DNA of 64,000 bases from Rhodoferax sp. TS-BS-61-7 (lineage in GTDB: Bacteria; Pseudomonadota; Gammaproteobacteria; Burkholderiales; Burkholderiaceae_C), in NCBI RefSeq assembly GCF_002943465.1, contig NZ_PTQY01000001.1:1116001-1180000 (forward strand), read 5' to 3'. Positions within the stretch are counted from its first letter, which is position 1. Every line of letters begins with the position of its first letter. Both the position numbers and the translations under genes were made by a program. Below the pieces are notes generated by a model. That model was not told the origin of the DNA. It saw only the letters and a program-made list of their open reading frames with translations, and did no database searches. Positions 16,412 through 64,000 of the stretch are shown in pieces.

Positions 16412-17223
16412 TGCACGCCGCCGGGGAACGCCTCAAGATTGCCGTGAGTGCATGTTTTATGCACCCGGACCCGGCGCGCGCCGCGTTTGCCAAGAAGACG
16501 CTCAACTACGTGGAGCTGTCGGTGCCGCACTGGCTCATGTCCGGCGGAGCGCTGCCGGTCATGGTGCCGTCGGTGGAGGGTGACACCGCACGCGGCGGCA
16601 TCACGCTGGACGACTACGCGCAGTGGCTCGATGGCCTGGTGCTGCATGGCGGTGCCGACCTGTGGCCCGGCAGTTATGGCGAGGCACCCATAGACGCGCG
16701 CTGGCAGGGCGACAAAGTGCGCGATGCGTACGAGATGGCGCTGGTGAAGGTCTTTGTGGCGGCGGGCAAGCCGGTGTTCGGCATCTGCCGCGGCCTGCAG
16801 CTCATCAACGCCACCTTTGGCGGCACGCTGGTGCAAGACATTCCCACCCAGCGCCCCGATGCCTTGCAGCACCGCGACGCCGAACGTTACGACCGGAACT
16901 TCCACCAACTGGAGTTAGTGCCAAAAACACGCCTTAGCGCGCTTCTGGATTGCGCAAGCAGCTATAAAATTAATAGCGTTCACCACCAGTGCATCAAAGA
17001 CCTGGCGCCCGGCTTTGAAGTGGAAGCGCGTTGCCCGGACGACGGCACCATCGAGGCCATCCGCGCCACCGGCCCCGACTGGATTGCCGCGGTGCAGTGG
17101 CACCCCGAATTTCACAAAGCCGAGCACGGCACGCTGGACGACACCCCGCTGCTGCACGATTTTTTGGCCCAGGCGCACGCAGTGCGTGCGGCGGCCCACC
17201 ACACCCTTTCCCCTGAACTCTGA
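16411..17223 (+). CDS. Class I glutamine amidotransferase-like gamma-glutamyl hydrolase (PuuD-like, peptidase C26)
   Basis: A 270-residue hydrolase. The nucleophile is Cys126 (GICRGLQ) and the His231/Glu233 pair is in QWHPEFH, completing the catalytic triad. PuuD enzymes remove glutamate from gamma-glutamyl amino acids; here the product would be glycine if the substrate is gamma-glutamylglycine. Residues about 174-189 (read SALLDCASSYKINS) are encoded by an inverted copy of the dispersed repeat, so this segment is an insertion relative to the family. ATG 16411 overlaps the previous stop. Confidence 0.85.
   Translation: MHAAGERLKIAVSACFMHPDPARAAFAKKTLNYVELSVPHWLMSGGALPVMVPSVEGDTARGGITLDDYAQWLDGLVLHGGADLWPGSYGEAPIDARWQGDKVRDAYEMALVKVFVAAGKPVFGICRGLQLINATFGGTLVQDIPTQRPDALQHRDAERYDRNFHQLELVPKTRLSALLDCASSYKINSVHHQCIKDLAPGFEVEARCPDDGTIEAIRATGPDWIAAVQWHPEFHKAEHGTLDDTPLLHDFLAQAHAVRAAAHHTLSPEL
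16927..16978 (-). repeat. Dispersed repeat copy 1, inside the gamma-glutamyl hydrolase gene
   Basis: Read on the minus strand: GCTAT, seven bases, ATAGCTGCTTGCGCA, then a spacer and GCGCTAAGGC. The element lies fully inside the coding sequence in inverse orientation and contributes CASSYKINS in frame, without a stop. Confidence 0.75.
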
Positions 17224-23882: not shown

Positions 23883-23936
23883 CTATGATTTTGATAGCTG
23901 CTTGCGCAGGTTGGACGGGGGCTGGAGGCTTAAAAC
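23883..23936 (+). repeat. Dispersed repeat copy 2, between aroG and the retropepsin-like gene
   Basis: CTAT, seven bases, ATAGCTGCTTGCGCA, then GGGGGCTGGAGGCTTAAAA. It fills much of the divergent intergenic region and abuts the aroG start codon, so it must overlap the promoter or leader of aroG. Confidence 0.8.
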
Positions 23937-23992
23937 ATATCAATTTTAGGGCGAAGAAGGTCGGAGTCTTGTCTCTTCTTACACTCCAGTCC

Positions 23993-26271: not shown

Positions 26272-26775
26272 CTAAGCCAGCCCGTGCCGCTCCATCACCT
26301 CGCGCCACGCAGCCAGCTTGCGTTCAAAGGTCCAACTGGCGTTGGCTGGGCTGGTACTGGGCAGCTTGTAGACGGGCACGCCCAGCGTCTGCGTGTGGCG
26401 TGCGTGTTTGTAGCTCTCGCCGCCGTTGTGGGCAATGGCCTGCAGCTGCGGTAGCTGCAGCCTGGCAATGTCGTTGACCACGGCGTCGCGGATGGCCGTG
26501 TCCAGGCTGCCTTCGCGCTGGCAGCTGGCATACACATCCCACACGCCCAGGCCGCGCTCCAGCAGCCAGGTGCTACGGGATTCATAGCTGCTCGCGCATA
26601 TTCCATCTGGGCTAGAGGGCCAAATGGCTTGTAATATCTTCCAGAACTGGTTTTGCGGGTGGCCGTAATACTGCTGCGCTTGCAGCGAGCGCACACCGGG
26701 GAAACTGCCCAAAATCAGCACCCGCGTGGCGGGCGACACCAGTGGCGGCAGGCCGGTCAGCACGGTGGCCGCCAT
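26272..26775 (-). CDS. Hypoxanthine-DNA (DNA-deoxyinosine) glycosylase, uracil-DNA glycosylase superfamily
   Basis: A 167-residue DNA repair glycosylase. The N-terminal LILGSFPGVRSLQAQQYYGHPQNQFWKI is typical of the family that removes deoxyinosine (read in parts: LILGSFPGV, YYGHPQNQFW), and the later IAHNGGES and LPSTSPANA segments complete the pocket. Residues about 52-70 (SSPDGICASSYESRS) come from a copy of the dispersed repeat and are an insertion between conserved segments. The last 16 residues are duplicated as a remnant at 24527. Enzyme family is fairly sure; base specificity is from recall. Confidence 0.82.
   Translation of the reverse strand: MAATVLTGLPPLVSPATRVLILGSFPGVRSLQAQQYYGHPQNQFWKILQAIWPSSPDGICASSYESRSTWLLERGLGVWDVYASCQREGSLDTAIRDAVVNDIARLQLPQLQAIAHNGGESYKHARHTQTLGVPVYKLPSTSPANASWTFERKLAAWREVMERHGLA
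26571..26634 (+). repeat. Dispersed repeat copy 3, inside the hypoxanthine-DNA glycosylase gene
   Basis: TGCTAC, seven bases, ATAGCTGCTCGCGCATATTCCAT, GGGCTAGAGGGCCAAA read in order on the + strand; the gene is on the other strand. The peptide it adds contains CASSYES, the same frame as copy 1. Confidence 0.8.
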
Positions 26776-37820: not shown

Positions 37821-37880
37821 TTGCTATCAATTTAGGAGCTATTTGCGCAGTATCTACAAGGGCTAGGGCCTTATTTGGCT
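37821..37880 (+). repeat. Dispersed repeat copy 4, between flavin reductase and decarboxylase genes
   Basis: TGCTATCAATTTAGGAGCTATTTGCGCA in parts (TGCTAT, AGCTATTTGCGCA) followed by GGGCTAGGGCC. It overlaps the 3' end of the decarboxylase gene, whose stop codon lies at 37871-37873 within the element. Confidence 0.75.
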
Positions 37881-39349
37881 TGAAAATCGCCCAACGCCAG
37901 CCGTTCCTGCGCCGCCATCAGCACGGCGCCTAGCAGCATCTGCACATCGTCCAACCGGGTGCGGTGGTTCACCAGTGCCACGCGGATCGCCAGCACACCG
38001 CCAATGCGCGTGGTGGACGGCACCGCCACGCCAGACTCCTGCACATCGGCCACGATGTCGGCGTTCAGCGCGTCCAGGTCCACACCTGCCGCCAGCACGC
38101 GAAAGCACACCACATTAAGCGTGACCGGCGCCAGCCGCTCCAGCTGTGGCTGGGCGTCCACCAGATGGGCCAGCTGCTGCGCCAGGCTGCAGTTCTGTGC
38201 GACCACCTGGCCCAGCTTGGCTGCGCCATAGGTCTTGAGTGTCATCCACACCTTGAGCGCACGGAAACCGCGCGACAGGTCGGGCCCAAAGTCGGTGGGC
38301 CAGGGCTGGTTGCCCGCCAGCCCACGCACGCTACGTTGCAGGTAGGCCGGCTGGCTGGCAAAGGTGGCCGCGTGCAGCGTGGCGTCGCGCACCACAATGC
38401 AACCCGCGTCGTAAGGCACCTGCGCCCATTTGTGAAAATCAAAGGCCACCGAGTCGGCCTGGCTCAGCCCTTGCACCAGCGGGCGCTGCGCGGGCGAGAG
38501 CATGGCCAGCGCGCCATAGGCCGCGTCCACATGGAACCACAGGCCCTGCGCGCGTGCCAGCGCGGCCAACGCGGCAAGGTCGTCCACCGCACCGGTATCC
38601 ACGGTGCCCGCGCTGCCCACCACCATAAAGGGCTGCAGGCCGGCCGCACGGTCTTGCGCCATGGCGGCTTGCAGCGCGTCCATGTCCATGCGGTGTTGTT
38701 CGTCTAGACCAATCAGGCGCAGCGCATCGCTGCCCAGGCCGGCCATGTCCATGGCGCGGGCCACGCAGTTGTGCGCCTCTACCGAGGTGTAGGCCACCAG
38801 CGGCCGGCCCTGCAGTCCGCTGTGCCGCACGTCCGTGCCCAGCGCCCGCGTGCGTGCCACCAGCACGGCAATCAGGTTGGCCATGGAGGTGCCGGTGACC
38901 AGCACGCCACTGGCGTCTTGCGGAAAACCCAGCATCTCGGCCGCCCAGCGGATCACTTGGCGCTCCACCTCGATCGGTGCATGGTCGCGCCCGCCCAGGT
39001 TGGGGTTGGTGGCGGCGGTTAGCAGTTCGGCCAGCATGCCCACGGGGTTGCCTCCACCCTGCACCCAGCCCATGAAACGGGGGTGGCTGTTGCCACTGCC
39101 ATAGGGTTGCACCAGGGTCTGGAAGTCCTGGTACACGGTCTCCAGATCGCCGGGCTCGGTGGGCAGCGCCCCCGTGCGCAAGGCCTGGCGGGCATCGTTT
39201 GGCATGGGCTGCCACACGGGCGCTTCGCGCAGCCCGGCCAGCATGTCCACCATGTCGTCGAGCATGCGGTGGCCCATCTGGCGCACCGCGTTCCAATCGG
39301 TGGGGTCCAGGCTGTCGGGGGAGGCTTGGAAAGGAATGTCTACGGACAT
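37871..39349 (-). CDS. PLP-dependent group II decarboxylase (aromatic L-amino acid decarboxylase-like)
   Basis: A 492-residue decarboxylase of fold type I. The PLP lysine is Lys307 (FDFHKWAQVP), PLP-binding Asp275 is in FHVDAAYG and the ring-stacking His193 is in VEAHNCVARA. GNSHPRFMGW matches aromatic amino acid decarboxylases (dopa, tryptophan, tyrosine). The last residues and stop fall in a dispersed repeat. It is on the same strand as gyrB and ridA, 41 bases downstream of ridA, so it may be read from that operon. Substrate is uncertain. Confidence 0.85.
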   Translation of the reverse strand: MSVDIPFQASPDSLDPTDWNAVRQMGHRMLDDMVDMLAGLREAPVWQPMPNDARQALRTGALPTEPGDLETVYQDFQTLVQPYGSGNSHPRFMGWVQGGGNPVGMLAELLTAATNPNLGGRDHAPIEVERQVIRWAAEMLGFPQDASGVLVTGTSMANLIAVLVARTRALGTDVRHSGLQGRPLVAYTSVEAHNCVARAMDMAGLGSDALRLIGLDEQHRMDMDALQAAMAQDRAAGLQPFMVVGSAGTVDTGAVDDLAALAALARAQGLWFHVDAAYGALAMLSPAQRPLVQGLSQADSVAFDFHKWAQVPYDAGCIVVRDATLHAATFASQPAYLQRSVRGLAGNQPWPTDFGPDLSRGFRALKVWMTLKTYGAAKLGQVVAQNCSLAQQLAHLVDAQPQLERLAPVTLNVVCFRVLAAGVDLDALNADIVADVQESGVAVPSTTRIGGVLAIRVALVNHRTRLDDVQMLLGAVLMAAQERLALGDFQAK

Positions 39350-47940: not shown

Positions 47941-49347
47941 GTGCTGACACGCCAAAGCGACCCCATCGTGGCTGTGGCCACGGCCCCTGGACGGGGGGCC
48001 GTGGGTATTGTCCGCATCAGCGGTAAAGACCTTTCCGGGTTTGTCCAGGCCCTCTTGGGCCGCACCTTGCGGCCACGCGAAGCCACCTATCTGCCCTTTG
48101 CCGATGCACAAGGCCAGCCGCTGGACCAGGGGCTGGCCTTGTACTTTCCGGCACCCCATTCCTTCACCGGTGAAGATGTGCTGGAGCTGCAGGCCCATGG
48201 TGGTGCCGTCGTCTTGCAATTGCTGGTGGCGCGCTGCCTGGAGCTGGCGGCTACTGTCCCCAGTGGGTCGGGTGGCGCGACCTTGCCGGGGCTGCGCATT
48301 GCCGAACCCGGTGAGTTTTCCCAGCGGGCTTTTCTGAACGGCAAGATCGACCTGACCCAGGCGGAGGCCATTGCCGATTTGATTGATGCCAGCACCGAAG
48401 CGGCGGCGCGCAGTGCCACGCAGTCGTTGGCGGGGGCATTCTCCCGGCAGGTGCATACGCTGCTCGAAGCGCTGACCCATCTGCGCATGCTGGTCGAGGC
48501 GACGCTGGATTTTCCGGAAGAAGAAATCGACTTTCTGCAGAAAGCGGATGCGTTGGGGCAACTGCAAACACTGCAGGGCACCGTGCAGCAGGTGCTGCAG
48601 CAGGCCACCCAGGGAGCCTTGCTGCGCGAGGGCATTACCGTGGTCATCGCTGGCCAGCCGAATGCCGGCAAGTCCTCCTTGCTCAATGCATTGGCGGGCG
48701 CCGAGCTGGCCATCGTCACACCCGTTGCGGGCACCACGCGGGACAAGGTGCAACAGACCATCCAGATCAAGGGCATTCCCATCCACGTGGTGGACACGGC
48801 TGGCCTGCGCAGCAGTGACGATGCCGTGGAGCAGATCGGCATTGCACGTGCCTGGCAAGCCATTGAGGAGGCCGATGCGGTGTTGTTTCTGCATGACCTG
48901 ACACGCCAGGGTGCTATGGAATACATAGCTGCTGACGCAGATATTACGGGTGCTTTAGCCCAAAAGCTTGCTAAAAACACACCGGTGATCCATGTCTGGA
49001 ACAAGGCCGATGCGGTGCCTGAGGTGGCGCCTGATACGGGCATTGTCTTGTCGGCCAAAACCGGTATGGGCCTGGATGCCCTGCGGGAGCGCTTGTTGGT
49101 GTCCGCTGGCTGGCAGCCTTCGGCGGGTGGCAGCTTCATGGCACGCCAACGCCACTTGCAGGCATTGCGCCAGGTGGATGCCCATTTGATGGAAGCCCAT
49201 GCCCACTTGGGCATGGGTGCCAATGCCCTGGACCTGTTGGCTGAAGAGTTGCGTCTGGGCCAGAACGCACTGAGCGAAATTACCGGTGCGTTCAGCTCGG
49301 ATGACCTGTTAGGTGTGATCTTCTCGAAGTTTTGCATTGGCAAATAG
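47941..49347 (+). CDS. mnmE: tRNA uridine-5-carboxymethylaminomethyl modification GTPase MnmE
   Basis: A 468-residue GTPase that with MnmG modifies U34 of certain tRNAs. It has an N-terminal formyl-folate-binding domain, Walker [10 protein letters not shown] (238-246), the DTAGLR G3 motif (about 285-290), NKAD and the diagnostic C-terminal CIGK with the catalytic Cys. The GTG at 47941 gives the usual [20 protein letters not shown]. Residues about 323-345 come from a dispersed repeat inserted in a loop of the G domain. Confidence 0.95.
48911..48972 (+). repeat. Dispersed repeat copy 6, inside mnmE
   Basis: GTGCTAT, seven bases, ATAGCTGCTGACGCAG, then a decayed tail with GGGTGCTTTAGCC. It adds [18 protein letters not shown] in frame, the same frame as copy 7 in the DUF2063 gene. 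Confidence 0.7.
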
Positions 49348-55812: not shown

Positions 55813-56256
55813 TTAGTAGCTGCTACGACCACCGCCGTAACCACCACCGCCGCCGCCACCGGAGCGGCCACCGCCACCACCGTAGCCGCCGCCACCGGAG
55901 CGGTCACCGCCGCCGCCGTAGCCGCCACCACCGGAACGGCCGCCGCCACCGAAGCCGCCGCCACCGCCAGCACCGCCGCCGAAGCCGCCGGAACGGGGAG
56001 GACGTGGTTCCATGGGACGGGCTTCGTTCACCACCAGACCGCGGCCACCGAACTGTTGACCGTTCATGGCGTTGATCGCGGTTTGTGCTTCAGCATCGCT
56101 GCCCATTTCCACAAAACCGAAGCCTTTGGAGCGACCGGTGTCGCGTTCCATCATGACTTTGGCGCTGGAAACGGAACCGTGTGCCGCAAACGCTTGTTGC
56201 AGGTCTTCGTCACGGAAAGAATAAGGCAGGTTGCCTACGTAAAGTTTGTTGCCCAT
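55813..56256 (-). CDS. Glycine-rich RNA-binding protein (RRM domain)
   Basis: A 147-residue protein with an N-terminal RRM (about 1-75): RNP2 LYVGNL and RNP1 KGFGFVEM, with the usual aromatic residues. The tail (about 88-147) is a run of glycine-rich units with Tyr, Arg and Ser (GGGGYGGGG, RSGGGG). Such proteins are cold-inducible RNA chaperones in cyanobacteria and plants. ATG 56256 is the family start. The DNA of the tail is a low-complexity triplet repeat. Confidence 0.92.
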   Translation of the reverse strand: MGNKLYVGNLPYSFRDEDLQQAFAAHGSVSSAKVMMERDTGRSKGFGFVEMGSDAEAQTAINAMNGQQFGGRGLVVNEARPMEPRPPRSGGFGGGAGGGGGFGGGGRSGGGGYGGGGDRSGGGGYGGGGGRSGGGGGGGYGGGRSSY

Positions 56257-56258
56257 GG

Positions 56259-56298
56259 AGGGACTCCTCAAAATAACTCAAAACGCGATGGAGTCCTT
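56259..56298 (-). promoter_or_regulatory. Leader hairpin masking the ribosome site of the RRM gene
   Basis: On the mRNA, GGACTCC (56296-56290) can pair with GGAGTCC (56267-56261), extended by one G-U and one A-U to nine pairs, with a 22-base loop. The 3' arm holds the Shine-Dalgarno GGAG, seven bases before the ATG. The leader is about 140 bases. Confidence 0.55.
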
Positions 56299-56419
56299 AA
56301 CCGCAATCAACAAACCAGTGAAGACTTAAAGCAGACGCGAAACTGACTAAACACCGCAAACTTGCACACCCGTACTCTGGGCAATGCAAGACCATTATGC
56401 GCTAGTTTTTAAAAGCCAC

Positions 56420-56653
56420 CTAATTTTTATTTTTTATAGGGTTTGTGGCGGAATCCGGTTCTTCCTCTGCGTAGTGGCGCCACTGTTGCATGCTGTTGCG
56501 CATGGTGAGCATTTGGCGCTCGAACCGGGGGCAGGCTGCGCAGGCGAGCAGGTGCAAGCGCAGCGCAATGCGGTCGCCTGTGCCCAGCGGGCGGTCTTCC
56601 CGGGCGACGAGCAGGGCGGCCGCTTCTCGGCAGGTCCTTCGGAATGGCATCAT
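56420..56653 (-). CDS. Zinc-finger anti-sigma factor-like protein
   Basis: A 77-residue protein. The HLLACAACPRF segment gives the His-x3-Cys-x2-Cys zinc finger of anti-sigma factors. Start ATG 56653 overlaps the sigma-factor stop by four bases (ATGA), the usual sigma/anti-sigma pairing. No membrane span is visible, so it would act in the cytoplasm. It would release the sigma factor on metal or thiol stress; this is inferred. Confidence 0.8.
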   Translation of the reverse strand: MMPFRRTCREAAALLVAREDRPLGTGDRIALRLHLLACAACPRFERQMLTMRNSMQQWRHYAEEEPDSATNPIKNKN

Positions 56654-57219
56654 GGTTGAACGGCCTTTGCAAACCAGTGCATCTCCAGACACTCGCGCAA
56701 ACGCAGGCGAGCGCGGTGCAGCTGTACGTAAAGGTTAGTCGGCGTGAGCTGCAGCTCCTTACAAATTTCCTCGCTGGACAGTTCCAGCCACTCGCGCATC
56801 AGGAACAGCCGCCCCTGGACTGCCGGTAACTTGTTGGTGCAAGCCTCCAGGATTTCGAAAAATTGGCGGCGGCTTGCGTCCTGCTCCGGGTTGCCCCACT
56901 CGGAGGGCATTTGGCTAAAGTGGCCGTCGGCTTGGAACGCGATCAGGTCCAGCGGATCTGTTTGGTGGTCGGGATCGGTATCCAGCGTGGTGGCTTCCCG
57001 GCTGTGGTGGCGCAGGGCGTCAATGATCTTGTGTTTGAGGATGCCCACCAGCCAGGTTTTGAGTTGGGAGCGGCTGTCAAACGCCTGGGGCTTGGCGATC
57101 GCGGCCAACACGGTCTCGGACACGGCGTCTTCGGCCCAGGCCTCGTTGCGCAATTGCAGGCGTGCAAACTTGAGGAGGTAATCACGGAGGTCGGCGACCT
57201 GCTGTTCAAAACTGGGCAT
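56650..57219 (-). CDS. ECF-type RNA polymerase sigma factor (RpoQ-like)
   Basis: A 189-residue sigma-70 family factor. Region 2 has AEDAVSETVLAAI and the -10 recognition stretch QLKTWLVGILKHKIID, and region 4 has LPAVQGRLFLMREWLELSSEEI with a helix-turn-helix. ATG 57219 (MPSFEQQ) gives a family-like start; the upstream in-frame extension overlaps the divergent bufferin promoter. It is divergent from the DUF2282 operon and probably directs it. In Cupriavidus metallidurans RpoQ is the analogue for the gold-induced gig genes. Confidence 0.85.
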   Translation of the reverse strand: MPSFEQQVADLRDYLLKFARLQLRNEAWAEDAVSETVLAAIAKPQAFDSRSQLKTWLVGILKHKIIDALRHHSREATTLDTDPDHQTDPLDLIAFQADGHFSQMPSEWGNPEQDASRRQFFEILEACTNKLPAVQGRLFLMREWLELSSEEICKELQLTPTNLYVQLHRARLRLRECLEMHWFAKAVQP

Positions 57220-57426
57220 GGGGGTTTGCGGGTTGGTGTGGTTGCAGTGTACGGTTGCGCGGTGGCACCACGTTTGCAGCCAAGGGAAAACCCGTGTGCG
57301 CGTGTTATCAAGCGGGGGTACTGTAAGAAATGCCAACCCTGCCGGACTAACCTTCAACCAGCGTTCTGGCGCAATTCCGTGCCAAGCCTATCTGGTTGTT
57401 TCTCTTTCCAACCTAGGAGTTTTCTC

Positions 57427-57696
57427 ATGAACCAACGTGCCCTGATCGCCGCCACCGCCGCCAGCCTGATGACCTTGGCCTTGGCCTCTGCCCCCGTGGC
57501 CGCCCAAGAGAAAGAAAAATGCTTTGGTATTGCCAAGGCCGGACAAAATGACTGTGCCAACCTCTCTGGCAGCCACTCCTGCGCCGGCCAGTCCAAGGTG
57601 GACATGGACAAGGGTGAATGGAAGTACGTCGCCAAAGGCACCTGCAAGGACATGAAGGGCCTGTCCATGGAAGACGCCAAGAAGATGAAGAGCTGA
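57427..57696 (+). CDS. bufA1: DUF2282 bufferin-1-type peptide precursor
   Basis: An 89-residue exported peptide. The signal peptide runs to about ASAPVAAQ (27), then a mature core with four Cys (Cys32, Cys43, Cys52, Cys73: [28 protein letters not shown]) and a charged tail. DUF2282 peptides are the precursors of bufferins, metallophores whose Cys are converted to thiooxazoles by the MNIO partner. TAGGAG at 57414-57419 is the ribosome site. First gene of the operon. Confidence 0.88.
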
Positions 57697-57707
57697 TTGC
57701 CTTGCCC

Positions 57708-58640
57708 ATGACCGCCACCTACCCCGACATGCCTGTGCCCGCGCCCCGCGGCCAGGTCGGCATCGGGTGGCGGCACCCCCATTACGCGGAGCTGCTGGAG
57801 CGGCAGCCCGCACTGGACTTTCTGGAAGTCCACTCCGAGAATTTTTTTGGCGGCGGTGGTGCTGCATTGGCCGTGCTGATGCAGGCCAGGGCGCACTACC
57901 CCATCAGCCTGCACGGCGTGGGGCTGTCGCTGGGCTCGGCGGTGGGGCTGGACCCCTGGCACCTGGACCAGCTGGCCCGCCTGGTGCAGCGGGTGGACCC
58001 CGTGCGGGTGAGCGACCACGCCTGTTTTGCGCGTGGCACCCTGGGGGCGCAGACCGTGCACGGCGCAGACCTGTTGCCCATCCCGTTTTCTGACGAGGCG
58101 CTGGACGTGTTGTGCCGCCATGTGCAGCAGGTCCAAGACCGGTTGCAGCGCCGCTTCATGGTGGAAAACCTGTCGGCCTATGTGCGCTGGAACAGCGCAG
58201 ACGCCCACGACTGGTCGGAGACTGATTTTTTGACCACTCTGGCCCGGCGCACGGGCTGCCTGCTGCTGGTGGATGTGAACAACATTTATGTGAATGCGCG
58301 CAACGCCGAACTGGCGGGCCAACTTGCCGATCCGCTGCAAGCCAGCCGCGATTGGCTGGACGCCATTCCGCCCGATGCCGTAGGCGAGCTGCATGTGGCG
58401 GGCCACTGCCATGTGGCCGATGCGCATGGCGAGATCGTGATTGATGACCACGGCAGCCGGGTCAGCCCCGCGGTGTGGGCGCTGCACCGGCATGCCTTGC
58501 AACGTTTTGGCCCCGTGGCCACATTGGTGGAGTGGGACACCGAGGTGCCTGCGCTGGACGTGTTGCTGGAGGAGGCCGATACCGCCCGCCATGCAGGCCA
58601 CGCCGTGCGCGGCGCTGCCACTGCGGAGGCCTTGGCATGA
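57708..58640 (+). CDS. bufB: DUF692 / MNIO (multinuclear non-heme iron oxidase)
   Basis: A 310-residue MNIO enzyme with a TIM-barrel. [13 protein letters not shown] and EVHSENFF are typical, and metal ligands are in [27 protein letters not shown] and [12 protein letters not shown] proteins such as MbnB and BufB modify Cys in partner peptides; here the partner is the DUF2282 peptide 12 bases upstream. ATG 57708 gives [10 protein letters not shown]. Its last four bases overlap the next gene. Confidence 0.92.
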
Positions 58641-59407
58641 GCGCCCTGGCACTGCAGCAACAGCAGCTGCTGGAAAGCCTGTTTGTGCCCGAAACTGAAG
58701 GTGCTATAAAAAACATAGCTATTTGCGCAGATTCCATGGGCGCTAGAGGCCTAAAAGCCTACCAATCCAATGGCCACGCCCTGGCCGAGCGCGCGCTGCT
58801 GGCGGCCTACCCGGTGCTGGCGCAGATGCTGGGCGGTGAGAGTTTTGCCGCCCTGGCGCGTGCGCTGTGGCACGCAAGCCCCCCGCAGCGTGGTGATATG
58901 GCGCAGTGGGGGGGCACGCTGGCCGATTTTGTGGCGACCAGCCCGCAGCTGGCCGACGAGCCCTACCTGGCCGATGTGGCACGGGTGGAGTGGGCGCTGC
59001 ACACCTGTGCCAGTGCGGCTGATGCCGAACTCCAACCCGCCACCCTGGCCCTGTTGGGCAGCCACGACCTGGACACCCTGCGGCTGCAACTGGCCCCCGG
59101 CACCGCTGTGTTGTGCAGCCCCTGGCCCACGGCCAGCCTGGTGCGGGCGCATTTGCAGGAAGGCTTAACGCTGGCCGAAGCCGCTACCCGCTTGCGCGCA
59201 GGTCAGGCCGAAGATGTGGTGGTCTGGCGCCAGGGCTACCGCCCGCGCCTGCGGCAGGCGGTACCCGGGGAGGTGGTGTTCGTATCCACCCTGCTGCAGG
59301 GCCGTGCCTTGGGGCCCGCTCTGGATGTTGCCCCGCAACTCGACATCAACGCCTGGCTCACCGACGCCGTGCAAAGCGGACTGCTGTTGGCCGTCCACGC
59401 CCCCTGA
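58637..59407 (+). CDS. bufC: DUF2063 putative DNA-binding-domain protein (BufC)
   Basis: A 256-residue protein of the family annotated as DUF2063 or 'putative DNA-binding domain'. In MNIO operons it acts as the precursor-recognition partner (BufC/MbnC-like). The N-terminal [13 protein letters not shown] and later [16 protein letters not shown] are conserved parts. Residues about 22-42 ([17 protein letters not shown]) are encoded by a dispersed repeat copy and look like an insertion. ATG 58637 overlaps the bufB stop by four bases. Confidence 0.85.
58701..58759 (+). repeat. Dispersed repeat copy 7, inside bufC
   Basis: GTGCTAT, seven bases, ATAGCTATTTGCGCAG, then ATTCCATGGGCGCTAGAGG and CCTAAAA. 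It matches copy 4 and the full-length model end to end and keeps the bufC frame open. Confidence 0.85.
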
Positions 59408-59431
59408 TTCTTCCACCCCCGCCACCCTGCG

Positions 59432-59926
59432 ATGACGCCTACCGCCATGCCCTCTTTGCAAACCCCCAGTGCTTCCTGGACCACCCGCGCTGTTGCGCTG
59501 TGGGACCGTCTGGAGCGCAGCCTTAACACCCTGCAGCCCCTGGCCGCCCTGCTGGCGCGGCTGTATGTGGCGCAGGTGTTTTTCCTCTCGGGCCTGACCA
59601 AGCTGCGCGACTGGGACATCACCCTGGCCCTGTTTGCCGATGAATACCACGTGCCCCTGCTCTCGCCCGCGGTGGCTGCTGCGCTCGGCACAGCGGGTGA
59701 GCTGGTTTTGCCCGTGTTGCTGGTGCTGGGCCTGGCTGGGCGTTTTGCGGCGCTGGGCCTGAGCGTGGTGAATGGGGTGGCGGTGCTGGCGCTGGCCGAG
59801 ATTGCCCCGGCGGCGCTGCAGCAGCACATCACCTGGGGCGTGTTGTTGGCCGCCTTGGCGCTGTATGGCTGCGGCCCCTGGTCGCTGGGGCCGGTGTTGC
59901 GGCGTTGGGTGCTTCGCGGGGCGTAA
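59432..59926 (+). CDS. bufD: DoxX-family membrane protein (BufD)
   Basis: A 164-residue DoxX family protein with four hydrophobic spans (about 38-57, 80-105, 110-128, 132-150) after a 30-residue N-terminal region. The first span reads RLYVAQVFFLSGLTKLRDW, the family's signature. In gig/bufferin operons the DoxX gene follows DUF2063, as here. It may couple to the respiratory chain; the role is unproven. Confidence 0.85.
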   Translation: MTPTAMPSLQTPSASWTTRAVALWDRLERSLNTLQPLAALLARLYVAQVFFLSGLTKLRDWDITLALFADEYHVPLLSPAVAAALGTAGELVLPVLLVLGLAGRFAALGLSVVNGVAVLALAEIAPAALQQHITWGVLLAALALYGCGPWSLGPVLRRWVLRGA

Positions 59927-59935
59927 GCTCGCGCC

Positions 59936-62068
59936 ATGCCCGCCGCTCCCTTTCCGCCGCCCACACCCGCCACGCGCCGGGGGCTGTGGCCCACGCGCAT
60001 TGCCTGGCGGCTGGCACTGGGGCTGGGGGTGTTGGTGGGGCTGGTGTTGTTGGCGCTGTTGCAGTCGGGTTGGCAGCTGCGCTTGATGTCGGACCTCACC
60101 CAGCGTTTTGCCACGGGTGACATGCAGCGCCTGCTGCGGGTGCAGGCCCTGACGCTGCAAACCGAAGGTGTGGGTAGCGCCCTGGTGCGCCTGGTGCATG
60201 CCCCGCGCGAAGACCGTGTCAAAGAGTACACCGATGTGGATGCGCGCAACCGCACGCTGGACGGCATCATCGAATCGCTGTCCGAAGGGCTGAAGGATGT
60301 CGAACAGGAAGCCACCCTGCGTCGCCTGGTGGAGGCCCGCACCACCTATGCCGAGGCGTTTATTGCCACGGTGGACGAGATTGAAGCCGACAACCTGCCC
60401 GCCGCCGCGCGGGCCCTCAACGACCAGGTGAACCCGGCCCTGAACGCGATGTTGCGGGAATCGGGCGCCCTGTTGCAGCGTGAGCGCCAGCGGGTCGAAG
60501 AGCAACTGGCGGCGGCCCAATCGCTGTTTGAGCGCGTGGCCCTGTGGGTTGGCGCCGCATCGTTGCTGGGTGTTGCGCTCGCTGCGGTGGTGGCCTGGCG
60601 CACCACCCGCAGTGTGGTGGCGCCCTTGGCGCGGCTGGAGACCGCGGCCTTGCAAATTGCCCAGGGTGACTACCGCCACCGCATGCCGGATACGGGTACC
60701 CAGGAGGTAGACCGCGTGGGCCAGGCGCTCAACACCATGGCCGATGCAGTGGCGCAGCGCGAGCAGCAAATCGTGCGGCTGGCCTACCAGGACAGCCTCA
60801 CCGGCCTGCCCAACCGCACCGCACTGCTCTACCCGCAACACCCCGTGCCGGAAGGCTACAACGCGCTGTTGCTGATCGATTTGGCCCGGCTCAAGGCCAT
60901 CAACGAAACCTTGGGTTTTGCCACCGGCGACACCCTGATCAAAGAGCTGGCCACGCGCAGCCAGGCCGTGTTGCAGACCGCCATGGCCCGCGGTTGGGTG
61001 GGGCCGCGTGGCGTGGTGGCACGCCTGGCGGGCGGCAGTTTTGCCATGGCCGTTCGGGCGGCCAGCCGCCATGAAGTGGAGCAACTGCGCCTGGCACTCA
61101 GTGCGGCCATGGCGCAGTCGGTGGCCTGCAGCGGTCACAGCGTGGACCTGGCGATTGCGTGTGGCTTGGCCGGTGCCGAAACGCAGGATGCTGTGGCCGC
61201 CAATGCCCTGCTGCGCAATGCCGAGGTGGCGCTGCACAGCGCCAAACGCGCCGCGCTGGACCACACCTGGTACAGCGCCGCCCAGGAGGCCGCGCGCCTG
61301 GACCACCTGAGCCTGGTGTCGGACCTGCGCACGGCGGTGGCCCAGTCCCAGCTGCAAATGTGGCTGCAACCCAAGCTGTCGTTGCAGACCGGCCAGCCTG
61401 TGGGGGCCGAGGCCTTGGTGCGCTGGGTGCACCCGCAGCGTGGTTTTGTGTCGCCGGCTGAATTTGTGCCGTTTGCCGAGCAGACCGGATACATCACCAT
61501 GGTGACCGACTGGATGCTGGACCAGGCCCTGCACACCTTGCAGCGCTGGGCCAGCACCTACCCCCAGCTCAGCATCGCCGTCAACCTGAGCACGCGTGAC
61601 CTGCAAGACCCGGGTTTTGCGCTGCGTGTGGCCGCCAAGGTGGCTGCCAGCGGAGTCGATCCACAACGCCTGCGCCTGGAGGTGACCGAGAGCGGGGTGA
61701 TGCAAGACGCCGTGAAAAGCCTGGCCCTTCTGCACGCCCTGCGCGCGGTTGGCATGCCGCTGTCCATTGATGACTTTGGCACCGGCTACTCCTCGCTGGC
61801 CTACCTGCAGAAGATGCCGGTGAGTGAGCTCAAAATCGACCGCAGTTTTGTCGATGGCATTGACGCGGCACCCGCCAGCCAGCGGTTGGTCAAGGCCATG
61901 ATTGAGATGGGCCACGGTCTGGATCTGGTGGTCACCGCCGAAGGTGTGGAAACCACCGCCGAGCGCGACATGCTCATCAGCCTGGGGTGTGATGTCATGC
62001 AGGGCTACCTGGGCAGCAAACCCCTGCATGGTGATGTGATGGAAACCTGGTTGCTATCAAATACATAG
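59936..62068 (+). CDS. EAL-domain c-di-GMP phosphodiesterase with degenerate GGDEF
   Basis: A 710-residue inner-membrane protein. Two spans (about 20-40 and 195-220) bracket a periplasmic sensor region, followed by a HAMP-like segment (about 222-275), a GGDEF domain whose active motif reads AGGSF and so cannot make c-di-GMP, and an EAL domain with intact GAEALVRW, DDFGTGYSSLAYL and EGVET. It should hydrolyse c-di-GMP or sense it. It begins ten bases after bufD and so may belong to the metal-stress operon. Its stop codon lies in a dispersed repeat. Confidence 0.9.
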   Translation: MPAAPFPPPTPATRRGLWPTRIAWRLALGLGVLVGLVLLALLQSGWQLRLMSDLTQRFATGDMQRLLRVQALTLQTEGVGSALVRLVHAPREDRVKEYTDVDARNRTLDGIIESLSEGLKDVEQEATLRRLVEARTTYAEAFIATVDEIEADNLPAAARALNDQVNPALNAMLRESGALLQRERQRVEEQLAAAQSLFERVALWVGAASLLGVALAAVVAWRTTRSVVAPLARLETAALQIAQGDYRHRMPDTGTQEVDRVGQALNTMADAVAQREQQIVRLAYQDSLTGLPNRTALLYPQHPVPEGYNALLLIDLARLKAINETLGFATGDTLIKELATRSQAVLQTAMARGWVGPRGVVARLAGGSFAMAVRAASRHEVEQLRLALSAAMAQSVACSGHSVDLAIACGLAGAETQDAVAANALLRNAEVALHSAKRAALDHTWYSAAQEAARLDHLSLVSDLRTAVAQSQLQMWLQPKLSLQTGQPVGAEALVRWVHPQRGFVSPAEFVPFAEQTGYITMVTDWMLDQALHTLQRWASTYPQLSIAVNLSTRDLQDPGFALRVAAKVAASGVDPQRLRLEVTESGVMQDAVKSLALLHALRAVGMPLSIDDFGTGYSSLAYLQKMPVSELKIDRSFVDGIDAAPASQRLVKAMIEMGHGLDLVVTAEGVETTAERDMLISLGCDVMQGYLGSKPLHGDVMETWLLSNT

Positions 62069-62116
62069 CTGCTCGCGCATATTCCATAAGCACCAAGTGC
62101 TTGTTTGGCTATAAAT
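62051..62116 (+). repeat. Dispersed repeat copy 8, shared by two convergent gene ends
   Basis: TTGCTAT, seven bases, ATAGCTGCTCGCGCATATTCCAT, then AAGTGCTTGTTTGGCTATAAATC. The EAL gene stops at the TAG of ATAGC (62066-62068) and the LysR gene on the other strand stops at the TAG of CTATAAATC (62109-62111). Confidence 0.85.
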
Positions 62117-63059
62117 CTGACGGGGGCTTGAACGGACTGGCTTGCAGCGCCTGCGCGCATTCCTGCACCATCCAGCGGCGAAAGCGGTGCAGCGCTTCGC
62201 TGTTGCGCCGGGTGTTGGGCTCCACCAGAAAGTAGCCGCGCGCCGTGCGCTGCGGTGCGGCCACCGCGGCCACCAGTTGCCCGCTGCGCACCAGCGCATC
62301 CACCAGCGGGGCCCAGCCCAGCGCCACGCCCTGCCCGGCCATGGCCGCCTGGATGACCAGCGGGTAGTTGTTGAGCGTGAGGTCGTGCCCGGCGCCCGCA
62401 CTGCGCAGGCCATGGGCGGCAAACCAGCCCTCCCACAGCAGCCAGCGCTGGGGTTCGGCACTCTCCAGGTGCAGCAGCGGCAGCGTGCGCAGGTCGGCTG
62501 CCTGGCCGCTCAGGCGCTGCCGGGTATAAAAAGTCGGGCTGCACACCGGCACCACGATTTCGGGGAGCAAGGGGGTGGCGCTGCAGCCGGGCCAATGCCC
62601 GTCGCCAAATGCCACTGCCATGTCCACCGGTTCACCGCGGATGTCGAACTGGTTCTGGCTGGTGACGATGCGCACATCCAGCTCCGGCACCAGCTCGCGC
62701 AGTGCGGCCAGGCGCGGCATCAGCCAATAGGTGGCAAAGCCGAAGTCGGTGGCCACGGTCAGCACCTGGCGCTCGCGCCGCGCCCGGATTTTGGCGGCCA
62801 CCTCGCCAATGCTGCTCAGGCTCTCGCGCACCGCGGTCACCAGCTGCAAGCCCTCGGGCGTGAGCGACACGCCCCGGTGCTCCCGCTTGAACAGGGGCAC
62901 GCCCAGGTCGTCTTCCAGCAGGCCGATGCGCTGGCTCACCGCCGGTTGGCTGGTGCCCAGCTCCTGGGCCGCAGCGGTAAAGCTCAGGTGGCGCACCGCG
63001 GCTTCAAAAAACACCAGGCTTTGCAAAGGGGGGAGGCGGCGCATGTCTTGCATAAGCAC
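62109..63059 (-). CDS. LysR-family regulator (choline-sulfate utilisation type)
   Basis: A 316-residue LysR protein of the GcvA subgroup. The helix-turn-helix spans about 8-65 (LSFTAAAQELGTSQPAVSQRI), and the effector domain begins near residue 90. Inner starts at MQDMRRL (63050) are possible. It is divergent from a choline-sulfatase gene, and I recall such regulators (TIGR03418 type) next to betC. It probably controls that sulfatase. Confidence 0.85.
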   Translation of the reverse strand: MLMQDMRRLPPLQSLVFFEAAVRHLSFTAAAQELGTSQPAVSQRIGLLEDDLGVPLFKREHRGVSLTPEGLQLVTAVRESLSSIGEVAAKIRARRERQVLTVATDFGFATYWLMPRLAALRELVPELDVRIVTSQNQFDIRGEPVDMAVAFGDGHWPGCSATPLLPEIVVPVCSPTFYTRQRLSGQAADLRTLPLLHLESAEPQRWLLWEGWFAAHGLRSAGAGHDLTLNNYPLVIQAAMAGQGVALGWAPLVDALVRSGQLVAAVAAPQRTARGYFLVEPNTRRNSEALHRFRRWMVQECAQALQASPFKPPSDL

Positions 63060-63164
63060 AGTTTATGCCGCCATAAGTAATAGATGTCTTCACGCGCAGG
63101 TTTTGCGTGCCTAGACTGAATCCATTGCATAACCCGCCTTTATGTTTACACCGGTACTTTGAAC
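63060..63164. promoter_or_regulatory. Divergent LysR/betC promoter region
   Basis: A 105-base gap between divergent starts. It holds ATAAGTAATAG at 63073-63083 and a GC-poor patch; no clear -35/-10 pair was fixed. LysR binding here is inferred. Confidence 0.35.
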
Positions 63165-64000
63165 GTGCGCCCACCCAACATCCTCCTCCTCATGGCCGAC
63201 CAGCTGACGGCGTCAGCCCTGGCCACCTACGGCAACACCGTGAGCAAGACGCCCACCATCGACGCGCTGGCCGCGGCCGGCGTGGTGTTTGAGTCGGCTT
63301 ACACCAACAGCCCTTTGTGCGCACCCTCGCGCTATGTGTTCTTGTCCGGCAAGTTGCCATCCAGCATCGGCGCCTATGACAACGCGGCCGAGTTGCCGTC
63401 CGAGGTGCTGACCTTTGCCCACCACCTGCGCCACGCGGGTTACCGCACGGTGCTGTCCGGCAAGATGCATTTTTGCGGTGCCGATCAGACCCACGGGTTC
63501 GAGGAGCGGCTGACCACCGACATCTACCCCGCCGATTTCGGCTGGACGCCGGACTGGGAGCAGCCCGAGGTGCGCCCCAGCTGGTACCACAACATGGGTT
63601 CGGTGCTGGACGCCGGCCTGTGCGTGCGCACCAACCAGCTGGACTTTGACGACGAGGTGGTATTCCTCGCGCAGCAAAAGCTGTTTGATATGGCTCGTGA
63701 TGAGGACACGCGTCCCTTCTGCATGGTGGTCTCCATGACCCACCCGCACGACCCCTATGCCATCCCCCGCGACTACTGGGACCGCTACCGCCATGAAGAC
63801 ATCGACATGCCCCAGGTGCGCGACGACATGGTGCCGCGCGACCCCCACACCCAGCGCCTGCGCCATGTGAGCGACATGGACCGCACCCCGGTGAGCGACG
63901 ACCAAGTGCGTAACGCCCGCCACGCTTACTACGGCGCGGTGTCCTATGTGGATGACCAGATGGGCCGCATCCTCAAAACACTGGAGCAGACCGGCCAGGC
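63165..64000 (+). CDS. betC: Choline-sulfatase, 3' end outside window
   Basis: The N-terminal 278 residues of a sulfatase that releases sulfate from choline-O-sulfate. The GTG at 63165 gives MRPPNILLLMADQLT; a TTG two codons earlier is an alternative. The metal-site Asp is in MADQL and the formylglycine Cys is in the CAPSR motif (LCAPSRYVFLSGK). HFCGADQTHGFEER and the WDRYRHEDIDMPQ segment fit choline sulfatases. It provides choline and sulfate; the rest of a glycine-betaine route is not seen. Confidence 0.88.
   Translation, partial: MRPPNILLLMADQLTASALATYGNTVSKTPTIDALAAAGVVFESAYTNSPLCAPSRYVFLSGKLPSSIGAYDNAAELPSEVLTFAHHLRHAGYRTVLSGKMHFCGADQTHGFEERLTTDIYPADFGWTPDWEQPEVRPSWYHNMGSVLDAGLCVRTNQLDFDDEVVFLAQQKLFDMARDEDTRPFCMVVSMTHPHDPYAIPRDYWDRYRHEDIDMPQVRDDMVPRDPHTQRLRHVSDMDRTPVSDDQVRNARHAYYGAVSYVDDQMGRILKTLEQTGQ

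Follow-up and report, generated by a model that had tools for sequence, protein, structure and literature searches.

Is a bufferin operon that stands next to a sigma factor gene run as a private metal switch, or is it one arm of a broader damage response? The question is raised by positions 56420–59926 of a 64,000-nucleotide stretch of Rhodoferax sp. TS-BS-61-7 DNA (contig NZ_PTQY01000001.1, positions 1,116,001 to 1,180,000; 'the window' throughout), which an original prediction had described as a bufferin operon with its own sigma/anti-sigma pair—a compact, stand-alone stress regulon analogous to the gig genes of Cupriavidus. We are reasonably confident of a broader answer: that a Buf1-type operon is here placed under an extracytoplasmic function (ECF) sigma factor held by a soluble zinc anti-sigma factor, and that the same sigma also drives msrPQ and msrA. 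Conserved promoters would thus tie the bufferin operon to the repair of oxidised methionine; a link that argues for bufferins in an oxidant/copper damage response, and against a private metal switch.

The gene families mark the locus as a bufferin operon of the Buf1 type, and it has relatives across the Comamonadaceae. On the plus strand, bufA1 (57427–57696) encodes an 89-residue DUF2282 precursor, predicted to be exported, with four cysteines and a single hydrophobic segment at its N-terminus as the signal sequence (PF10048, 87.9 bits against a cut-off of 22.4). It is followed by bufB (57708–58640), by family the MNIO maturase (PF05114, 309.5 against 25; NF050167 MNIO_BufB, 317.3 against 310), bufC (58637–59407), encoding a DUF2063 protein and predicted MNIO partner (PF09836, 51.2 against 27.2), and bufD (59432–59926), encoding a DoxX-family membrane protein with several hydrophobic segments (PF07681, 55.1 against 23.6). 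Diverging from these on the minus strand are the genes for the 189-residue ECF sigma (56650–57219; NF009173, 286.8 against 255; TIGR02943, 224.5 against 162.2) and the 77-residue anti-sigma (56420–56653; zf-HC2, PF13490, 25.9 against 22.2; NCBIfam NF052368, 65.3 against 50), the latter beginning within the last bases of the sigma gene. Pfam and NCBIfam place all six genes where the original prediction had them, and both the bufA1-B-C-D order and the divergent pair are upheld by families and coordinates. The bufA1 stop lies 11 nucleotides before bufB, and bufB and bufC overlap by four bases; four of the gene starts were chosen by us, the MNIO start at 57708 being preferred to an ATG at 57618 in the open reading frame list, which falls inside bufA1. 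From the sequence, AGGAG at 57415–57419, seven nucleotides before the bufA1 ATG, is the likely ribosome binding site. The labels BufA2 (NF050166, 26.5 against a cut-off of 60), HvfC (NF050145, 20.8 against 142) and HvfX (NF050144, 50.2 against 80) were tried and rejected. The whole 4.19 Mb genome holds one MNIO match and one DUF2282 match, and a search of 56000–63500 with Rfam families gave no match at E up to 1.

The interval between the sigma gene and bufA1 (57220–57426), where the original prediction expected the sigma to bind, does contain a sigma-type promoter. It lies on the plus strand at 57322–57350 and has the form TGTAAGAA-N15-GACTAA (TGTAAGAA at 57322–57329, GACTAA at 57345–57350); it is presumably this site that the sigma recognises. 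Of 42 distinct intergenic regions, 39 carry GTAAG-N15..19-GAC on their bufA side, none carries it on the sigma side, and 33 have the strict form TGTAAG-N17-GA[CT]. The spacing is 17 in 39 of 40 distinct leaders, as collected with a search expression that allowed 13 to 17 and excluded anything longer; in the fortieth (L065) the expression caught an earlier match, and a 17-spaced site is visible there too. With the motif on 0/42 sigma sides, autoregulation of the sigma gene was rejected. Instead, a -10-like hexamer, TACACT (57246–57251, minus strand), suggests that the sigma gene is read from a housekeeping promoter, because it occurs within 70 nucleotides of the sigma start in 30/42 regions, where letter shuffles predict 0.9; in some regions it and the bufA -35 are the same letters read on opposite strands. 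When the bufA promoter is combined with TAACCA or CAACCA, the start of a leader hairpin described below, the pattern occurs once each in 14 of 61 genomes, each time 1.3–2.1 kb from bufC by coordinates, and its reverse never occurs.

Does this promoter stand elsewhere? In the genome itself, GTAAG-N17-GACTAA with up to one mismatch gives 9 sites, and the reversed pattern gives 60, so that single matches mean little without conservation. Three of the nine have no mismatch: one inside the sigma gene, one the bufA1 promoter itself, and one 48 nucleotides before what we take, from its sequence, to be an MsrP/YedY-like gene with an MsrQ-like frame behind it; a one-mismatch site lies 56 nucleotides before msrA. 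A matrix trained on 34 bufA promoters was carried across genomes: MsrP was found in 55 and MsrA in 56 of the 61, and for each the 200 nucleotides before the gene were scored in the 30 best-matching genomes. An msrP site scoring at least 10 (a line set after the scores were seen) is present in 21/23 genomes with the sigma vs 2/7 without it (Fisher p=0.0027). Of these good sites, 21/23 fall 49–52 nucleotides before the start codon, and the best opposite-strand score is -9.0. Sorted by operon, 19/21 genomes with buf score at least 13, and 4/9 counted as lacking buf score at least 17; in G014, one of the two other buf genomes, TGTAAGAA is present before msrP with a spacing one base longer. For msrA, where the line is a score of 5, a split by sigma counted by hand gives 13/21 genomes with the sigma vs 1/9 without. 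We read msrPQ as a likely target of the sigma and msrA as a possible one. Two further matches in the genome are recorded here as observations: a one-mismatch promoter-like site (L135; G000:C12:207483-207510, minus strand) lies 33 nucleotides before a gene for a small secreted protein with conserved-looking cysteines, itself behind a hisD-like gene, and another one-mismatch match (L132) falls inside a long frame.

The same data bear on a narrower alternative, in line with the original prediction: a dedicated gold/copper switch in which the sigma would control bufA1BCD only, the msrP and msrA sites serving another sigma of similar specificity. The divergent layout would suit such a switch, being that of gigPABT/rpoQ-rsqA in C. 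metallidurans, where gig responds to Cu and Au (PMC10304878; this and the other papers are cited for the parts of their text that were available), as would one genome, G026, that has an msrP site and no match to this sigma. Yet the msrP sites track the sigma, as given above, and share bases and spacing with the bufA training promoters. Moreover, in three relatives (G041, G053 and G012; draft genomes) the sigma and anti-sigma genes adjoin the RNA-binding-protein gene that also neighbours them in the window, and the stretch fetched holds no buf gene. The msrP site is kept in G041 and G012; a BufC match is absent from these two at E 0.001, and G053 has one distant match elsewhere. Conversely, G015 and G054 have buf and no sigma match at E 1e-30, so that pair and operon are separable in both directions. 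We regard the dedicated switch as unlikely, and favour the wider regulon. Two parts of the original prediction are thus left without support: that the pair, found without neighbouring buf genes in three relatives, is the operon's 'own', and that the regulon is compact and stand-alone, which is wrong as far as promoters tell, the same promoter standing before msrPQ and, in weaker form, before msrA.

Several observations nonetheless weigh against the wider regulon. To the commoner reversed pattern, the sigma-less buf genomes G015 and G054 and the sigma-less msrP site of G026 are to be added two genomes, G014 and G023, that have the sigma and no good msrP site. The msrA site of the genome itself scores 8.9, below the lowest training site (11.5); scores of at least 5 before msrA are found in 11/21 genomes with buf vs 3/9 without, and opposite-strand scores there reach 4.2. 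Finally, gig expression in C. metallidurans rose when rpoQ was deleted (PMC10304878).

What would hold the sigma in check, and what would release it? The anti-sigma carries C8, H34, C38 and C41, and the HxxxCxxC motif is kept in all 24 relatives examined (one of them partial). The highest 19-residue hydropathy is 0.97 in the window protein, and the maximum with the 24 relatives included is 1.16, so that no membrane segment is expected; a search of the PDB by sequence found no credible relative. The protein is predicted to be small, soluble and zinc-binding. In the scheme we propose, a hypochlorite-like oxidant, or a metal that reacts with thiols (Cu, Au), would release the zinc of the anti-sigma or oxidise the protein, and the freed sigma would transcribe bufA1BCD together with msrPQ and msrA. 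The MNIO BufB, with BufC as partner, would then modify BufA1, and the bufferin, exported by Sec, would bind copper in the periplasm, with MsrPQ, a periplasmic methionine-sulfoxide reductase, and MsrA repairing oxidised methionine. By sequence, BufB matches two MNIO proteins of known structure in the PDB, 3bww (E 3.9e-27) and chain D of 8hci (E 3e-9). For BufC a PDB sequence search gave no match at E 1; its predicted structure, with a mean predicted local distance difference test (pLDDT) score of 89.2, matches the companion subunit in the TglHI holoenzyme (8hci and 8hi7, chain A; E 3.7e-5 and 4.8e-5) as well as NGO1945 (3dee; E 1.5e-3). From these families, and from what the available text of PMC12452194 reports, we infer that BufB and BufC act jointly on BufA1.

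Set beside known systems, the locus shares with gig an operon of DUF2282-type peptide, MNIO, DUF2063 and DoxX genes divergent from a sigma/anti-sigma pair (PMC10304878), and to this extent—gene order and divergent pair—the analogy drawn by the original prediction stands. It is incomplete at the anti-sigma: RsqA is described as predicted membrane-bound (PMC10304878; a comparison by description), whereas the window protein is predicted soluble and its 24 relatives are without a membrane-like stretch. RpoQ dependence of gig is not demonstrated in the available parts of the C. metallidurans paper (PMC10304878), and a search of plasmids for the gig locus of C. metallidurans returned only relatives below 60% identity.

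Likenesses at least as great lie further afield. The Neisseria sigmaE/MseR system (NMB2140-2145; PMC2893595) likewise has an ECF sigma with a small cysteine/zinc anti-sigma and a DoxX-like gene, and its promoter, GTMAGBWTT - 12-13 - CGTCTAAH, resembles TGTAAGAA-N15-GACTAA. A methionine sulfoxide reductase belongs to that regulon, as it would here by promoter evidence alone; the enzyme is MsrA/MsrB there and MsrPQ, perhaps with MsrA, here, and the Neisseria genes form one autoregulated operon, as against a divergent pair without the motif on its side. In Haemophilus, RpoE2 and HseR (PMC7907618) are again an ECF sigma with a small, soluble anti-sigma, not autoregulated; HseR is a 67-residue cytoplasmic protein related to the Neisseria one, and RpoE2 controls methionine sulfoxide reductases and a DoxX/DUF2063/COG3220 cluster and responds to hypochlorous acid (HOCl). 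That cluster is unlinked to the sigma and, in the available text, is not described as DUF2282, whereas here Buf1 adjoins the sigma. Caulobacter sigmaF, in a heavy-metal response, controls two DUF2282-DUF692-DUF2063 operons and a YedY-type (MsrP) gene (PMC3511200), so that both systems would pair a DUF2282-type operon with a YedY/MsrP gene under one ECF sigma; they differ in the anti-sigma, NrsF being a six-segment membrane protein (DUF1109) and the window protein a zf-HC2 protein predicted soluble, and in the promoter, GTAACC-N16-CGAA there (PMC3511200) and TGTAAG-N17-GACTAA here. Sites of the TGTAACC...CGAA type, like those sigmaF promoters, were seen only before bufA in distant buf operons without a linked sigma (L036, L038–L041, L043, L044, L046–L048, L050, L051, L054 and L055). 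Described Buf1 clusters (PMC12452194) share the precursor-MNIO-DUF2063-DoxX core, the four cysteines and nearby sigma factors, the anti-sigma being named NrsF in the text available and of the zf-HC2 kind here; a review (PMC10151825) covers related sigma systems governing MsrPQ under HOCl. The wiring would thus resemble that of Neisseria, Haemophilus and Caulobacter at least as much as that of gig. The system is largely known, its separate links all having precedents; our literature search found no paper in which msrPQ and a zinc anti-sigma are brought together with a Buf1 operon.

How widely is the arrangement spread? The closest named relatives are Curvibacter and Rhodoferax loci, with MNIO proteins 82–84% identical. 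Full-length BufC relatives (E 1e-46 or better) are found in 39 of 100 genomes of the same genus; the buf operon is common, yet not universal, in the genus. The sigma gene is present in 23/26 of the nearest named loci (L008–L033) and in 0/23 more distant ones (L034–L056), and the sigma itself occurs in 27 of the 61 genomes; all 65 distinct BufA relatives keep the four cysteines. Two variants of layout were seen. At L033:1964-3894, two bufA copies precede bufB with a putative membrane-protein gene between them, and at L022:3018-3539 and L029:3022-3525 the sigma gene and bufA are separated by a gene whose product, exported and bearing a CPVC motif, we take by eye to be thioredoxin-like.

Beyond the promoter matrix and the soluble zinc sensor, the locus supplies a third checkable target, a 5'-terminal mRNA hairpin; this and an in-frame repeat in bufC, neither of them listed in the original prediction, are features that specialists would want to follow. 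Directly after the bufA1 -10 sits an inverted repeat, for which fold and covariation predict a hairpin at the 5' end of the bufA1 mRNA (57355–57398, plus strand), its outer stem formed by CAACCAG (57355–57361) and CTGGTTG (57392–57398). By analogy with Neisseria, where the transcript starts six nucleotides after the -10 (PMC2893595), the bufA1 transcript would start at about 57356, on the first arm of the hairpin. The window leader folds at -21.9 kcal/mol (z -2.85). In an alignment of 37 leaders (L011, L027 and L031 removed by hand; L010, L022, L025, L028, L029 and L032 missed by the 13–17 spacing expression), 95.0% of the 222 cells at the six outer positions are paired, and 13 cells have changed in both partners; neither value was equalled in any of 500 shuffles, and pairing in slid versions does not exceed 45.3%, with the caveat that kinship alone can outdo shuffles. 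At the outermost pair that varies, 23 sequences have A-U, 5 have G-C and 3 have C-G.

Such a repeat might also be thought a DNA operator for a second regulator, since it adjoins the start site, is palindromic and is conserved. Against an operator, the second arm begins at a varying distance, some 33 to 43 nucleotides after the -10, the stretch separating the arms shows no conservation, and the base changes are compensatory; in addition, all 12 chosen relatives, folded from inputs trimmed to the start of the stem, have their 5' end paired to the second arm. We consider the operator doubtful, and an RNA hairpin the better description, with one reservation: z falls below -2 in just 4 of the 12 relatives, which speaks against it. 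The probable role of the hairpin is to protect the bufA1 message or to modulate its translation.

The second feature is a palindromic repeat element within bufC (58701–58753, plus strand), read in frame as about residues 23–39 of BufC; a section that includes a short predicted helix of low confidence (pLDDT 57–68). The head pattern of the repeat has at least 94 copies in the genome, and the reversed pattern none. Forty of the 94 were fetched and 39 entered a profile; against this profile of other genomic copies, the bufC copy scores 44.4 bits (E 6.3e-13 in the window), the best of seven strong copies in the 64 kb. Could this be the chance similarity of an ordinary linker? The length of the linker varies (Curvibacter L021 has 9 fewer residues up to AYQ, and L030 has a longer linker), so that insertion and overwriting are not distinguishable and no clean insertion of element size is seen; in addition, 8 of 33 rows of the clade described below fall under a 12-bit line. 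A score of this size against a profile that does not contain the bufC copy, its lead over all other window copies, and the 94-to-0 count of the head pattern are hard to reconcile with chance, to which we give very little credence.

For the repeat itself, a tree was built from BufB and the rest of BufC, using the 40 of 60 rows that have both genes (L008–L033, L057–L086). With the line at 12 bits (L078, at 10.1, counted as without), the element is present in 25/33 rows of one clade (support 92/98) and in 0/7 rows outside, and it needs five changes on the tree vs 12.2 expected from shuffled labels. The tree can be read as one gain and four losses; the element was probably gained once in the clade. 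Nor is bufC alone in carrying it. Among the fetched copies, 27 have an open frame of at least 120 codons across them, and a Pfam scan took 20 frames from 19 of these. In nine of the 19 (L090, L094, L095, L098, L100, L101, L116, L119 and L122) the copy is in frame and falls inside a Pfam domain or in the gap between two domains of its frame; in two it precedes the domain, and eight have no Pfam match; sampled copies fall in DNA polymerase I, TilS, an AIR-synthase-like protein and an aquaporin-like protein. On balance we lean, by a modest degree, towards repeats that are read as protein inside many genes, the bufC copy having been fixed at the base of the clade and kept in frame.

If so, the repeat became part of a partner protein that helps make a bufferin, and lets one ask whether repetitive DNA can join a working enzyme partner. 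The Rickettsia palindromic elements (PMC3733652) are alike in being palindromic repeats read inside proteins, and differ from the BufC repeat in sequence and lineage; a literature search, with most subscription journals outside its reach, did not find the repeat described. The other strong copies in the window lie at 16922–16978, 23883–23940, 26580–26630, 37821–37883, 48911–48965 and 62051–62111, the last of which overlaps the 3' end of a GGDEF-EAL gene (59936–62068) and thus supplies the stop codon of that gene.

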